Shown here: positions 3,081-42,755 of the stretch, in pieces
Position numbering within the stretch: position 1 is the first letter of the stretch
How the letters are laid out: every line of letters begins with the position of its first letter
Notes under the pieces: generated by a model
Told to the model about the DNA's origin: nothing
Seen by the model: only the letters and a program-made list of their open reading frames with translations
Databases searched by the model: none
Source: Mucilaginibacter sp. KACC 22773
GTDB lineage: Bacteria > Bacteroidota > Bacteroidia > Sphingobacteriales > Sphingobacteriaceae
Length of the DNA: 64,000 nt
NCBI RefSeq assembly: GCF_028736215.1
Contig: NZ_CP117883.1
Coordinates: forward strand, 7,006,001-7,070,000
Direction of reading: 5' to 3'
Made by a program: the position numbers and the translations under genes

Positions 3081-3743
3081 ATGAAACCTACAAAAAACAC
3101 CTGGCTAATAGCCTTTTTACTAACAGTTGTAAGCAGCCTGCCTGCTGTAGCGCAAAGCACAAAAGCCGATATTTTTTCGGGCAGTGCTAAAATTACCTGG
3201 TTAGGACTTGATTTTACACAAACAAAATTTATAGGCACAGCCGAAGCCAAGGTAATGGGCATTGGAAGAAAAGATGATATAACGCCCGAAGAATTCAGAG
3301 ACGACTATACCGTAGGATGGAACCGTCTTTTTGTTACCGAGCAAAAGAAATATGATGTGGCCGAATCAATTCACCACAGTTCTGTTGACTATGCCCTTGA
3401 TGTAGCTAAGTCTTCAAACGCCAAAGCAAAGTTTGATAAACTTTATACCGATAATCCAAGCGATTTTAAATTATTGGATGAAGCAAAAATTACGGCTATT
3501 GTAAAAAATTATGATTTCCAGAGCAAGGAAGGTATTGGCTATATCTTTTTTGTAAGCGGCATGAACAAAGGCCTTGATAAGGCCGGTGTTTGGATAACCT
3601 TTGTTGATATGAAAACCAAAACGGTTTTGCTTACCAAATATTACGAAGGCAAACCAGGGGGTTTTGGCCTTAGAAACTACTGGGCAAAAGCGTTTTTAAA
3701 CGTAATGAAAGATGTAAAATCTGATTATAACAGCTGGAAATAA
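3081..3743 (+). CDS. Secreted/periplasmic protein of unknown function
   Basis: I do not recognise a named domain in this 220-residue protein. The ATG at 3081 gives an N-terminus with a charged start, a hydrophobic core and a signal peptidase I-like 'AVAQS' site at about residue 24, so export is likely. The mature part is mixed alpha/beta with many Lys residues and no cysteine cluster. The in-frame ATG at 3030 would put 17 residues before the signal peptide and overlap the previous gene, so it is unlikely. Being in the middle of the pigment block, it could help handle the product in the periplasm. Confidence 0.7.
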   Translation: MKPTKNTWLIAFLLTVVSSLPAVAQSTKADIFSGSAKITWLGLDFTQTKFIGTAEAKVMGIGRKDDITPEEFRDDYTVGWNRLFVTEQKKYDVAESIHHSSVDYALDVAKSSNAKAKFDKLYTDNPSDFKLLDEAKITAIVKNYDFQSKEGIGYIFFVSGMNKGLDKAGVWITFVDMKTKTVLLTKYYEGKPGGFGLRNYWAKAFLNVMKDVKSDYNSWK

Positions 3744-38180: not shown

Positions 38181-38221
38181 TTTTACCTGCATATTTGTTT
38201 AACCATCAATTATTCAAAACC

Positions 38222-38737
38222 ATGAAATTACTTTCTTTAATATTGGGCTTCGTTTTAATGACGGCCGCTCCATCGTCGGTTTACGATTTTAAACTGAAAA
38301 CTATCGACGGGGATAACTTTTCGCTTGCCAAATACAAAGGCAAAAAGGTATTAATTGTAAACACAGCCTCAAAATGCGGCTTTACCAAACAATACAAAGA
38401 TTTAGAAGCGTTGGCCGAAAAATACAAAGGCAAACTGGTTGTAGTTGGCTTTCCTGCCAACAACTTTGGCGGCCAGGAACCGGGCACTAATCAGGACATT
38501 AAGACCTTTTGTCATGACAATTTTAACGTAACGTTCCCGATGAGCGGAAAAGTTAGCGTTTTAGGTTTAGATATCGACCCATTGTTCCAATATCTTACAA
38601 CAGCGCCAAATCCTGATTTTACAGGCGACATTAAATGGAACTTCGAAAAGTTTTTGATCGACGAAAATGGCAAACTCATCCACCGTTTCAGGTCGGCAAC
38701 TACACCAATGTCTGAAGATATTACTAAATATCTTTAA
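38222..38737 (+). CDS. Glutathione peroxidase family protein (exported)
   Basis: A protein of about 171 residues with a signal peptide-like N-terminus (hydrophobic residues 2-20) and the peroxidase motifs: 'NTASKCGFTKQY' (peroxidatic Cys, about residues 46-57), 'FPANNFGGQEPG' (Gln of the triad) and 'KWNFEKFLID' (Trp/Asn). It should reduce hydroperoxides, probably with thioredoxin, in the periplasm. The ATG at 38222 is preferred; the TTG at 38195 would precede the signal peptide. A terminator follows. Confidence 0.9.
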   Translation: MKLLSLILGFVLMTAAPSSVYDFKLKTIDGDNFSLAKYKGKKVLIVNTASKCGFTKQYKDLEALAEKYKGKLVVVGFPANNFGGQEPGTNQDIKTFCHDNFNVTFPMSGKVSVLGLDIDPLFQYLTTAPNPDFTGDIKWNFEKFLIDENGKLIHRFRSATTPMSEDITKYL

Positions 38738-39382: not shown

Positions 39383-39427
39383 GGTGACATAAGTCACCGC
39401 AGCAGGTGGGCAAATCATTTACTTTTG
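39383..39427 (+). promoter_or_regulatory. Operator and promoter upstream of tauE-like gene (dyad 1)
   Basis: The perfect dyad GGTGAC-ATAA-GTCACC (39383-39398) is followed 21 bases later by TACTTTTG (39420-39427), a TAnnTTTG -7 box. A Crp/Fnr-type dimer bound at the dyad would lie over the -33 region, as for class II activation. The same layout recurs at 40262-40306. Confidence 0.7.
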
Positions 39428-39448
39428 TGTTAATAATTAGTTTTAAAC

Positions 39449-40249
39449 ATGCACGTTTTCGCTTACCTCGCATCTGCTTTAATCGGAATTTCGCTTGGCC
39501 TGATTGGTGGGGGCGGCTCAATCATGACGGTTCCGGTGCTGGTTTACCTTTTTGGCGCCAGCCCGCTTTTAGCCACCTCTTACTCCCTGTTTATTGTTGG
39601 CTCAACCAGTTTGGTTGGCGCTTTTACCAACTACCGCAAGGGACTGGTGAATGTGAAAACAGCGTTGCTTTTTGGTTTAACATCTATCAGCACGGTTTTT
39701 ATCGCCCGTAAGTTCCTGTTGCCCTTAATACCCCATAACATTTTACAGATAGGTTCATTTCAACTCACCGAAAATATCCTTACCATGGTGCTTTTCGCGC
39801 TGTTGATGGTGGCCGCGGCAACAGCAATGATTAAAAGCGGCAGTAAGACGGAAGTGCCACAAAACACGGGCGAAAAAAAAAGCAACATTACCAAACTTTT
39901 ACTTTATGGTATAGCCATAGGGTTGGCCACCGGCTTCTTAGGGGCAGGCGGCGGCTTTTTGCTTATCCCAACCCTTGTTTTACTGGTTGGCTTGCCCATG
40001 AAAGAGGCTGTTGGTACCTCGCTGCTCGTTATCGCCATGAATTCGCTGATTGGCTTTACCGGCGACCTGGGTCATTTTACTATAGATTGGGCATTTCTGA
40101 TAAAAATAACCGCGATAGCCATCGCCGGTATATTTGCAGGGGGCTTAATTAGCCGCCGGGTTGATGCCAACAAATTAAAAAAAGCCTTTGGCTGGTTTGT
40201 ATTGGTAATGGGTATTTATATACTGGCCAAAGAACTGTTTTTTAAGTAA
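39449..40249 (+). CDS. Sulfite exporter TauE/SafE family permease
   Basis: A 266-residue polytopic membrane protein (8 or so hydrophobic segments) with the repeat family motifs 'GLIGGGGSIMTVPVLVYL' near the N-terminus and 'GFLGAGGGFLLIPTLVLL' in the second half. TauE/SafE proteins move sulfite or organosulfur anions out of the cell. It precedes a persulfide dioxygenase/rhodanese gene with a matching operator, so it is likely the sulfite exporter of a sulfide-oxidation pathway. Confidence 0.88.
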   Translation: MHVFAYLASALIGISLGLIGGGGSIMTVPVLVYLFGASPLLATSYSLFIVGSTSLVGAFTNYRKGLVNVKTALLFGLTSISTVFIARKFLLPLIPHNILQIGSFQLTENILTMVLFALLMVAAATAMIKSGSKTEVPQNTGEKKSNITKLLLYGIAIGLATGFLGAGGGFLLIPTLVLLVGLPMKEAVGTSLLVIAMNSLIGFTGDLGHFTIDWAFLIKITAIAIAGIFAGGLISRRVDANKLKKAFGWFVLVMGIYILAKELFFK

Positions 40250-40261
40250 ATTTAATGCGGC

Positions 40262-40306
40262 GGTGACTTTGGTTACCATCTGTTTGCGTACGAAACCGCA
40301 ACTTTG
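40262..40306 (+). promoter_or_regulatory. Operator and promoter upstream of MBL-rhodanese gene (dyad 2)
   Basis: The dyad GGTGAC-TTTG-GTTACC (40262-40277; one mismatch between arms) is followed 21 bases later by CAACTTTG (40299-40306), a -7-like box with one change from TAnnTTTG. Spacing is the same as at the tauE site. Confidence 0.68.
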
Positions 40307-40327: not shown

Positions 40328-41746
40328 ATGCATATAGAACAAATATATACCGGATGCCTGGCCCAGGGTGCATATTACATCCAATCAGAAAATGAGGTTG
40401 CCATTGTTGATCCCTTAAGGGAGGTGGAGCCATACATAGCTAAAGCCAAAGCGGCCGGCGCCACCATCAAGTATGTTTTTGAAACTCATTTCCATGCCGA
40501 TTTCGTATCGGGCCACATCGACCTGGCGCGGGAAACCGGTGCGCAGATTGTTTATGGGCCAAATGCAGTAACCGGCTTTGAAGCGCATATAGCTAAAGAT
40601 AACGAAACCTTTAAAGTTGGCAAACTCACCATAAAAGTGCTGCACACACCCGGCCATACCATGGAATCCGCCTGTTACCTTTTAATCGATGAATTTGGCA
40701 AAGAAACCGCGTTGTTCTCTGGCGATACTTTATTCATCGGCGATGTTGGCCGTCCCGACCTGGCACAAAAAGCATCGGGGCTGACACAGGAAGGCCTGGC
40801 AGGTATTTTGTTCGATTCGTTGCGCACCCGCATCCTGACATTGCCCGATGATGTTATCGTTTACCCCGCCCACGGTGCCGGATCTGCCTGCGGCAAAAAC
40901 ATGAGCAAGGAAACCACCGACACCTTAGGCAATCAAAAAAAATACAACTACGCCTTGCGCCCCAACATGACGCGTGAAGAATTTATAACTGAGGTTACCC
41001 GTGGATTAACCGCCCCGCCGGTATATTTTCCATTAAATGTTAAAATGAACAGGGAGGGTTACGAAAGCTTTGAAAAAGTACTGAGCCAGGGAACCCAGCC
41101 ATTAACCCCCGACGCGTTTGAAGCCGCGGCCAACAGCACCGGCGCCATTTTGCTTGACACGCGCGATCCCCAGGTTTTTGCAAAGGCCTTTGTGCCTAAC
41201 TCCATCAATATTGGCATAGACGGGAGCTTTGCCCCATGGGTTGGCGCGTTGGTGCCGGATATTAACCAGCAAATTTTGTTGATTACCGAAGACGGGCGCG
41301 AAGAAGAGGTAGTTACCCGCCTGGCCCGTGTAGGTTATGACCATGCCATTGGTTACTTAAAGGGCGGCATTGCGGCGTGGCAGGCTGCCGGTAACGAAAC
41401 AGACAGCATTGTATCTTTAACTGCTGATGAACTTGCAGATAAAGTAAGCAACCATAGCCTGGTAAAAATTCTTGATGTGCGTAAAGCACCAGAGTACTAT
41501 GCCGAACATATATTAGACGCCGAAAACCTGCCGCTGGATGACATCAACAGCAATATGGCCCGGTTGGATAAAAATGAGACTTACTATGTGCATTGCGCCG
41601 GAGGATATCGTTCAATGATATTTAATTCGATGCTGAGGGCGCGGGGCTTTGCTAACCTTGTTGATGTTCAGGGCGGCTTTAAAGCCATAAAAGATTCAGG
41701 CAGGTTTAATATAAGCGCGTATGTGTGTCCAAGCACAATGCCCTGA
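40328..41746 (+). CDS. MBL-fold persulfide dioxygenase fused to pseudorhodanese and rhodanese domains (CstB-like)
   Basis: A 472-residue protein. The N-terminal MBL domain (about residues 1-240) has 'THFHADFVSGH' (the metal-binding motif, in the form seen in CstB-type enzymes) and 'LHTPGHTMES'. A first rhodanese domain (about 255-360) has no catalytic Cys at the loop ('LITEDGREEE'), so it is a pseudorhodanese. A second rhodanese domain (about 370-465) has 'HCAGGYRSM' with the active Cys. Such proteins oxidise low-molecular-weight persulfides to sulfite or thiosulfate. The ATG at 40328 is used; TTG at 40304 overlaps the -7 box. Confidence 0.9.
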   Translation: MHIEQIYTGCLAQGAYYIQSENEVAIVDPLREVEPYIAKAKAAGATIKYVFETHFHADFVSGHIDLARETGAQIVYGPNAVTGFEAHIAKDNETFKVGKLTIKVLHTPGHTMESACYLLIDEFGKETALFSGDTLFIGDVGRPDLAQKASGLTQEGLAGILFDSLRTRILTLPDDVIVYPAHGAGSACGKNMSKETTDTLGNQKKYNYALRPNMTREEFITEVTRGLTAPPVYFPLNVKMNREGYESFEKVLSQGTQPLTPDAFEAAANSTGAILLDTRDPQVFAKAFVPNSINIGIDGSFAPWVGALVPDINQQILLITEDGREEEVVTRLARVGYDHAIGYLKGGIAAWQAAGNETDSIVSLTADELADKVSNHSLVKILDVRKAPEYYAEHILDAENLPLDDINSNMARLDKNETYYVHCAGGYRSMIFNSMLRARGFANLVDVQGGFKAIKDSGRFNISAYVCPSTMP

Positions 41747-41784: not shown

Positions 41785-42345
41785 ATGCTTAATTTGCTCA
41801 AACAACCCTGGCCCTGGTATACTTCTGGGGCTGCAATTGCAGCTATCATGGTTCTATTGCTTTATTTCGGAAAATCATTTGGTTTTTCATCCAACCTGCG
41901 TACCATCTGCTCCATGGCCGGCGCGGGTAAAAAAGTATCGCTTTTTGATTTCGACTGGCGGGCACAAAAATGGAACCTGCTGTTTTTGCTGGGCTCGGTT
42001 TTAGGCGGATTGATATCCGCGACCCTGTTAAAAAACGACGCGCCATTAAAACTGGCCGCCTCTACCGTTACCGATCTTAAAACTATCGGTATAAATTTTG
42101 ACGGTCAGCTAAATCCCACACAGCTTTTTGGGGTTCATAGCTTGTCTTTCAAAAACATTGTCATCCTGTTATCCGGTGGGTTACTGGTGGGCTTTGGTTC
42201 CAGGTATGCGGGCGGATGTACATCGGGGCATGCCATTAGTGGCCTGTCGAACCTGCAATGGCCTTCATTAATAGCGGTCATTGGCTTTTTTGCCGGCGGA
42301 CTTATCATGACACACTTTTTATTACCGCTGATATTATCGATATGA
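41785..42345 (+). CDS. YeeE/YedE family sulfur transporter, first half (PmpA-like)
   Basis: A 186-residue membrane protein with about four hydrophobic segments and the YeeE/YedE signature 'GFGSRYAGGCTSGHAISGLS', including a conserved Cys, near residues 133-152. The family imports thiosulfate or polysulfide-type sulfur. It follows the persulfide enzyme by 38 bases and overlaps the second half by four bases, so the two halves form one transporter. Confidence 0.88.
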   Translation: MLNLLKQPWPWYTSGAAIAAIMVLLLYFGKSFGFSSNLRTICSMAGAGKKVSLFDFDWRAQKWNLLFLLGSVLGGLISATLLKNDAPLKLAASTVTDLKTIGINFDGQLNPTQLFGVHSLSFKNIVILLSGGLLVGFGSRYAGGCTSGHAISGLSNLQWPSLIAVIGFFAGGLIMTHFLLPLILSI

Positions 42346-42755
42346 AAGGATTAAGATTTATTATCGCCGGTGTCATTTTCGGCATCATCATGACCAAGTC
42401 TGAGGCTGTTTCCTGGTACCGCATCCAGGAGATGTTCCGCTTCCAGTCGTTTCATATGTATGGCATTATTGGCACCGCTGTAGTTTTAGGCGCATTGTCT
42501 GTTTACCTCATTAAAAAGTTCCACATCAAAGATTCGCAGGGCAACCCTATCATATTTGCCGATAAAGAAAAAAGCCGGGCAAAGTATATCATCGGCGGCC
42601 TGGTATTCGGCCTTGGCTGGGCGCTTACCGGCGCATGCCCCGGCCCTATGTTTGTAAATATCGGCTACGGGTATGTATCCTTTATCATCGTGGTTATCGC
42701 GGCGCTGGGCGGCACTTACCTTTATGGTTTGGTAAGGGATAGGTTGCCGCACTAA
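42342..42755 (+). CDS. YeeE/YedE family sulfur transporter, second half (PmpB-like)
   Basis: A 137-residue membrane protein with about four hydrophobic segments and 'GWALTGACPGPMFVNIG' (about residues 89-105), the conserved Cys-containing signature of the second YeeE/YedE half. ATG at 42342 overlaps the previous stop by four bases; the frame opens earlier but would overlap the first half more. A terminator follows. Confidence 0.87.
   Translation: MKGLRFIIAGVIFGIIMTKSEAVSWYRIQEMFRFQSFHMYGIIGTAVVLGALSVYLIKKFHIKDSQGNPIIFADKEKSRAKYIIGGLVFGLGWALTGACPGPMFVNIGYGYVSFIIVVIAALGGTYLYGLVRDRLPH

Follow-up and report, generated by a model that had tools for sequence, protein, structure and literature searches.

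Two palindromic operators in a sulfur-handling operon of Mucilaginibacter sp. KACC 22773 – each standing at the same distance ahead of a promoter – probably serve an autoregulated Crp/Fnr activator which, working in the class II manner, turns on tauE and an MBL-rhodanese gene in response to a reactive-sulfur signal, received most likely through residue Cys82. The window in which they lie, meaning the whole stretch of DNA analysed, is 64,000 nucleotides long; unprefixed positions are those of the window, and positions beginning with C1 are genomic. As we picture the mechanism, a dimer of the product of the gene at C1:54287-54931 would bind NGTGAC-N4-GTCACN centred at −41.5, overlap and stand in for a missing −33 element, recruit RNA polymerase in the manner of class II Crp activators and switch on tauE, the MBL-rhodanese gene and the regulator’s own cytochrome c–DsrE–crp operon; the signal would be persulfide or polysulfide on the invariant Cys82, joined by Cys88 in the branch of the family with a CX5C motif. 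This proposal builds on what can be read from the sequences themselves: the operators with their fixed gap, rarity and gene linkage, the autoregulatory site and the conservation of the cysteines.

The window operon, encoded on the forward strand, begins with a tauE/safE-type sulfite exporter of 266 amino acids (39449-40249; PF01925), followed by a CstB-like protein of 472 amino acids counted from its ATG (40328-41746), in which an MBL-fold domain (PF00753) precedes rhodanese domains (PF00581, two stretches) – the order of a CstB-type persulfide dioxygenase-rhodanese. Its best solved relatives, matching over nearly the whole length, are 3tp9 (E 4.9e-71) and 3r2u (E 2.3e-59). Two transporter halves come next, one YeeE-type (Sulf_transp; 41785-42345; PF04143) and one YedE-type (Sulf_transp/DUF6691; 42342-42755; PF04143 and PF20398). 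A CstB-like MBL-rhodanese and TauE are also part of the cst operon of Staphylococcus aureus. Upstream, a protein named glutathione-peroxidase-like from its sequence (38195-38737) ends about 650 nucleotides ahead of the first operator, and the intergenic stretch between the two holds no obvious gene.

Operator 1, GGTGACATAAGTCACC (39383-39398, forward strand), precedes tauE, and operator 2, GGTGACTTTGGTTACC (40262-40277, forward strand), precedes the CstB-like gene. A first-pass annotation of this DNA had placed both palindromes correctly, each before the gene it named, and had called them identical; as four of their 16 positions differ – three in the spacer and one, C or T, in an arm – they are better described as similar. 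Exactly 21 nucleotides separate each from a −7 box of the TAnnTTTG kind, as that annotation also had it: TACTTTTG (39420-39427, forward strand) in the tauE promoter, with six of six matches, and CAACTTTG (40299-40306, forward strand) behind operator 2, with five of six. In Flavobacterium psychrophilum the sigma-A −7 box is given as TAnnTTTG, from −12 to −5 (PMC9723704). If the same numbering is applied to this genome, transcription is predicted to start at 39432 (tauE) and 40311 (MBL gene), and both operators are centred at −41.5; an alternative upstream TTG of the MBL-rhodanese gene, at 40304, would precede the predicted start. The position −41.5 is that of class II Crp activators. Action ‘from the −33 region’, as first proposed, thus needs correcting: with the right half-site ending at −34, the activator would overlap and stand in for the −33 element instead of sitting at it. 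Sigma-70-type promoters are uninformative between 39100 and 42900, where seven were found against 6.5 expected.

Reading the bases of both window promoters, we found no TTG at −33. From this and the fixed −41.5 site we infer class II activation. Could the same protein instead be a repressor that covers the promoter until the signal frees it, as CstR and SqrR do? The overlap with −33 would suit such a role, and the persulfide sensors CstR, SqrR and BigR are described as repressors (PMC9774590); however, neither promoter offers the TTG, and a rigid 21-nucleotide gap at −41.5 suits contact with polymerase and is unneeded for blocking. We consider repression very improbable.

How far could such palindromes arise by chance? 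In the genome scan that the first-pass annotation had suggested, exact GGTGACN4GTYACC was found just twice in 7,541,737 bases, both times in this operon; the reversed-pattern control gave one forward and one reverse match across the whole genome. Allowing up to one mismatch to GGTGACN4GTCACC yields five places (control, nine), three of which – the two window sites and C1:52664-52679 – share the 21-nucleotide gap to a −7 box, and the other two fall within long open frames, of 719 and 241 codons, with no box at gap 21. The third operator, GGTGACTTAAATCACC, is followed after 21 nucleotides by the −7 box CAGTTTTG. Within the window alone, eight matches with up to two mismatches were equalled by six of 100 shuffles, which is not significant, so the case for real operators is made by the exact matches, the common gap, the third site and the relatives, and not by that scan.

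The possibility that the palindromes are accidental, or that they fold as hairpins in the RNA, for example as a terminator behind tauE, might draw on that null result and on a scan that listed both as terminator-like; set against it are the genome-wide rarity, the third site and a 21-nucleotide gap kept across genera, and we give it almost no credence. A hairpin or terminator was rejected on account of the poor T runs after the stems, the location of operator 1 upstream of the predicted start and the fixed gap.

Broader patterns behave differently from one another: GTRACN4GTYAC occurs at 21 places in the genome against 31 in its reversed control, and GTGAYN4RTCAC at 17 against five, an excess which suggests that a different Crp paralogue may own the latter sites. 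Among 68 oriented sites examined in this genome (covering all but one of the 17 GTGAYN4RTCAC places), five have a box of at least five of six matches at gap 21, namely the three operators and two sites with three and four mismatches, and no further clear member of the regulon was found. Two side observations belong here: GTGATACTTATCAC lies at C1:213797-213810, some 57 nucleotides ahead of another Crp/Fnr gene (start near C1:213867), and two GTGAT-type palindromes stand 37 nucleotides apart at C1:353621-353671, the first of which is found again, reverse-complemented, at a distance of 2.9 Mb (C1:3286526-3286539).

The third operator heads an operon for a SoxA/TsdA-type cytochrome c, a DsrE-like protein and a Crp/Fnr protein of 214 amino acids (C1:54287-54931, outside the window). 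The last is 78% identical to the Crp protein of a Mucilaginibacter metagenome genome (L017), in which crp lies directly before tauE and perfect operators occupy the corresponding places (positions 2088-2103 and 3200-3215 of the L017 locus) – with the exception, for so near a relative, that both gaps to the box are 22 rather than 21. It is this gene order, together with the operator before its own operon, that ties a regulator unlinked in the present genome to the window operon. The common activator of Crp/Fnr type postulated earlier is thus supported, with C1:54287-54931 as the candidate: its operon has a like operator at an equal gap, and its relatives adjoin tauE and MBL-rhodanese genes in Bacteroidota. 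That the family of this protein binds these operators is strongly implied.

As the genome contains seven Crp-type helix–turn–helix matches above the Pfam cut-off, another paralogue might bind in its place, for instance the single-Cys protein at C1:7366959-7367567, which belongs to the same overall family. The latter, however, has Val where other rows read the operator G by Glu, its neighbours are unrelated genes, and it is the CX5C gene alone whose own operon is headed by the operator; binding by a paralogue strikes us as very improbable.

The link between the candidate family and the operators was examined in relatives of the MBL gene, the best 80 of 117 being kept as loci. The retrieved locus itself contains a family Crp gene in 35/80 cases, 24 of which have it within 400 nucleotides of tauE, mbl or yeeE; for 34 of the remaining 45, such a gene lies at another place in the genome (E 1e-20 or better), so that the family is present in 69 of these best 80 genomes with an MBL-rhodanese gene. 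Upstream of operon genes we counted 76 operators (at least 9/10 to NGTRACN4GTYACN), spread over 46/80 loci; a box of at least five of six matches follows at gap 21 in 64 of them, at 20 in four and at 22 in three, and at none of these in five. The reversed-pattern control gave ten sites in the 80 loci, with zero at gap 21. Operators are present in 45 of the 69 loci with a family Crp versus one of the 11 without (Fisher p 0.0006), the one being L059; the 24 Crp-bearing loci lacking an operator at this threshold represent a soft absence, as the genomes are drafts, and the same applies to the missing Crp of L059.

Since the R/Y form of the operator had been settled on with these first loci in view, a second set was taken: 80 Crp-centred regions of about 15.6 kb (a few clipped) from 77 genomes, picked from the family matches found at E 1e-45 in 132 of the 395 genomes of the phylum, and possibly overlapping the first set in some species. 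Among its 286 oriented sites, the box lies at gap 21 in 73 and at gap 22 in 18, as against at most seven at every other gap from 5 to 36, and 52 of the 80 regions have at least one gap-21 site. Taken together, the two sets argue strongly for a regulator–operator link.

The reading of the operator by the recognition helix may have diverged within the family. Where G and A half-sites are unequal in number, Glu goes with GTGAC in 28 rows and Val with GTAAC in 51, the exceptions being two rows with Val and GTGAC (L224, L231) and one with Glu and GTAAC (L080), so that 79/82 follow the pairing. Left out of this count were 14 genomes in which G and A half-sites tie (three with Val and the others with Glu), the first set's single-Cys Crp rows and, for two regions, the second Crp gene; the present genome was assigned the operator state G manually, on the strength of its three sites, and L093 (Val, CX5C not found, GTGAC operator), which falls outside the count, contradicts the rule. 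In the first set, half-sites divide into 49 G and seven A for Glu, and six G and 78 A for Val. Once descent is allowed for, the rule is not significant, despite these overwhelming raw counts: the Crp tree shows four changes of the residue among the counted rows, and all four independent pairs agree (p 0.125); in the MBL tree, agreement is seen for three of four pairs, the other showing no difference (p 0.25); and the first Crp tree has a single change of the helix residue. In CRP itself, mutants at E181 favour A:T at the position in question. CRP contacts its bases through Arg180, Glu181 and Arg185 (PMC12531629), and the pairing of Glu or Val with GTGAC or GTAAC fits these contacts.

The candidate belongs to the Crp/Fnr superfamily in that PF00027 and PF13545 both score over their cut-offs, as they do in the L017 and L071 proteins. 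A model of the L017 protein (pLDDT 89.3, pTM 0.67) has a CRP-like fold according to Foldseek and VIA-align, with an unsure inter-domain angle (rmsd near 14 for many whole-chain matches), and the structural-library rows shown contain no fold besides Crp/Fnr or cyclic-nucleotide-binding domains. It is not CRP proper: the position of the arginine that holds the cAMP phosphate is Arg in only 7/156 rows, Lys or Thr being commonest, and the NCBIfam CRP model scores 34.5 against a cut-off of 266 bits. FNR proper was likewise rejected, the NCBIfam Fnr model scoring 23.7 against 228 bits and 17 of 70 CX5C proteins having two cysteines in all, versus the four of a 4Fe-4S cluster. Being Crp/Fnr by Pfam, the protein belongs neither to the CstR (CsoR) nor to the SqrR/BigR (ArsR) family.

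Only three columns of the alignment, which joins both sets, have cysteine in more than 15% of its 156 rows. Cys82 is found in 155/156, the remaining row lacking that stretch; Cys88, which completes CX5C, is found in 118/156 and is absent from 37 of the 155 Cys82 rows; and the position after Cys88 is Cys in 89/156. In alignment with CRP, the Cys82/Cys88 segment falls at the beginning of the phosphate-binding cassette, where CRP takes up cAMP. Regulators of the single-Cys branch lie near MBL genes in eight of the 80 second-set regions, from which it follows that a dithiol is not essential to the linkage and that Cys82 is the better candidate for an essential thiol.

What else might these operators control? 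Besides tauE, mbl, yeeE and crp, a target scan covered 20 proteins encoded behind gap-21 sites, which include three Pyr_redox_2 flavoproteins of sulfide:quinone oxidoreductase length, three SulP permeases, two rhodaneses, one molybdopterin oxidoreductase like sulfite oxidases, one 1-Cys-type peroxiredoxin and two OsmC proteins; not obviously related to sulfur are three outer-membrane efflux proteins, two DUF983 proteins and a short-chain dehydrogenase, the remainder being a DinB-family protein and one protein with no match. Some may be chance hits or wrong downstream calls. Interpreted by their family names, the targets would form a route from sulfide through persulfide and sulfite to sulfate, with export.

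A conserved-cysteine activator beside sulfur-detoxification genes in many relatives probably induces them as reactive sulfur builds up. The target genes and the conserved cysteine point to persulfide or redox sensing, and the more specific identification of the signal as persulfide or polysulfide on Cys82 and Cys88 is a more tentative suggestion. For inclusion among the persulfide sensors, control of sulfide or persulfide oxidation genes is indicated by operator position and linkage only, and a conserved reactive cysteine is suggested by the conservation of Cys82 and Cys88; conservation by itself does not prove sulfur sensing. With operators and activator unchanged, the signal could also be the disulfide or peroxide redox state, nitric oxide, a metal or some other ligand of the cAMP-type pocket. 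Such a signal would agree with the genes for peroxiredoxin, OsmC and thioredoxin reductase that lie behind some gap-21 operators, and with the single-Cys branch, which stays beside MBL genes without Cys88. Yet genes concerned with sulfide, persulfide, thiosulfate or sulfite make up most of the named targets and neighbours, and proteins with two cysteines only, as in the 17 of 70 mentioned above, have too few for an FNR-type four-Cys cluster; we rate a non-sulfur signal as rather unlikely and prefer reactive sulfur.

Plasmids carry similar arrangements. Paks1 of Pontibacter akesuensis (L238) encodes rhodaneses, trxB, crp, tauE, MBL, rhodanese, YeeE and DUF6691, with five operators, each standing 21 nucleotides from its box; they precede a rhodanese gene, trxB, tauE, MBL and a further rhodanese gene; pSLIN02 of Spirosoma linguale (L242) encodes crp, tauE, MBL and YeeE/YedE, with two gap-21 operators, before tauE and MBL, and its Crp has Cys82 and a cysteine one place past position 88. 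Both plasmids, which bear the whole crp–tauE–MBL–transporter cassette with its operators, are typed mobilizable. Cysteines are present at both positions in all three of the CX5C relatives from proteobacterial plasmids that were examined (Paracoccus, L240; Azospirillum, L241; Thiothrix, L239), and the Paracoccus protein adjoins genes for an MBL protein, an FAD oxidoreductase and SulP, which are absent from the 5 kb shown for Thiothrix and Azospirillum. The 21-nucleotide rule was not seen in these three relatives. A DUF2892 gene lies near the Crp relative in Paracoccus, Azospirillum and Thiothrix alike. The best PDB relative by sequence, the solved Crp/Fnr protein 3dv8 of Eubacterium rectale (E 1.6e-35), also has Cys at both positions (CLLSASC), although it comes from a different phylum. 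Given the CX5C relatives from Paracoccus, Azospirillum, Thiothrix and Eubacterium, the branch may extend past the phylum.

Compared with E. coli CRP, the candidate shares the fold and domains, the GTGA...TCAC core, the R-E-x-x-x-R reading residues and an operator at (predicted) −41.5, but its cassette holds Cys82 and Cys88 in a family that rarely retains the cAMP-phosphate arginine, its operator has an extra symmetric C/G (GTGAC-N4-GTCAC) and its promoter is of the sigma-A, Bacteroidota type. With FNR and other Fe-S Crp/Fnr proteins it has in common the activator type and cysteines near the sensor domain, but not a four-Cys set. The persulfide sensors described in PMC9774590 – CstR (CsoR-type), SqrR, BigR and PigS (ArsR-type) and FisR – govern sulfide and persulfide oxidation genes, and their conserved cysteines form di- to tetrasulfide links. 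The candidate resembles CstR, SqrR/BigR and FisR in its apparent control of such genes through conserved cysteines; however, their protein families are unrelated to Crp/Fnr, and whereas CstR and SqrR repress their targets and FisR acts together with sigma-54, the Crp/Fnr protein here is a predicted sigma-A activator. The Crp of Acinetobacter baumannii has been found persulfidated, with no known effect given (PMC7315123). In the open-access literature we found neither a report of a Crp/Fnr sensor for this operon nor a description of sulfide or persulfide sensing by Bacteroidota. The first-pass reading was largely right; the regulator now has a candidate, and the site a predicted position of −41.5.

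Read jointly, these results would describe a phylum-wide, persulfide-responsive Crp/Fnr branch that runs sulfide oxidation in Bacteroidota from −41.5 sites, a picture on which we are evenly divided between belief and doubt. According to it, a cysteine in the old cAMP cassette would have replaced the nucleotide as ligand, the regulator would travel on plasmids together with its target genes, and a change from Glu to Val at the equivalent of CRP Glu181 would have shifted the operator from GTGAC to GTAAC – a pairing that would be a natural case of the change known from CRP genetics in E181 mutants. For the Bacteroidota, which are major heterotrophs of soil, sea and gut, the analysis offers a named candidate regulator, an operator, a promoter geometry and a list of targets. 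If the cysteine does sense persulfide, Crp/Fnr would join the CsoR, ArsR and FisR types of sensor, and a nucleotide pocket would have been turned into a thiol sensor.
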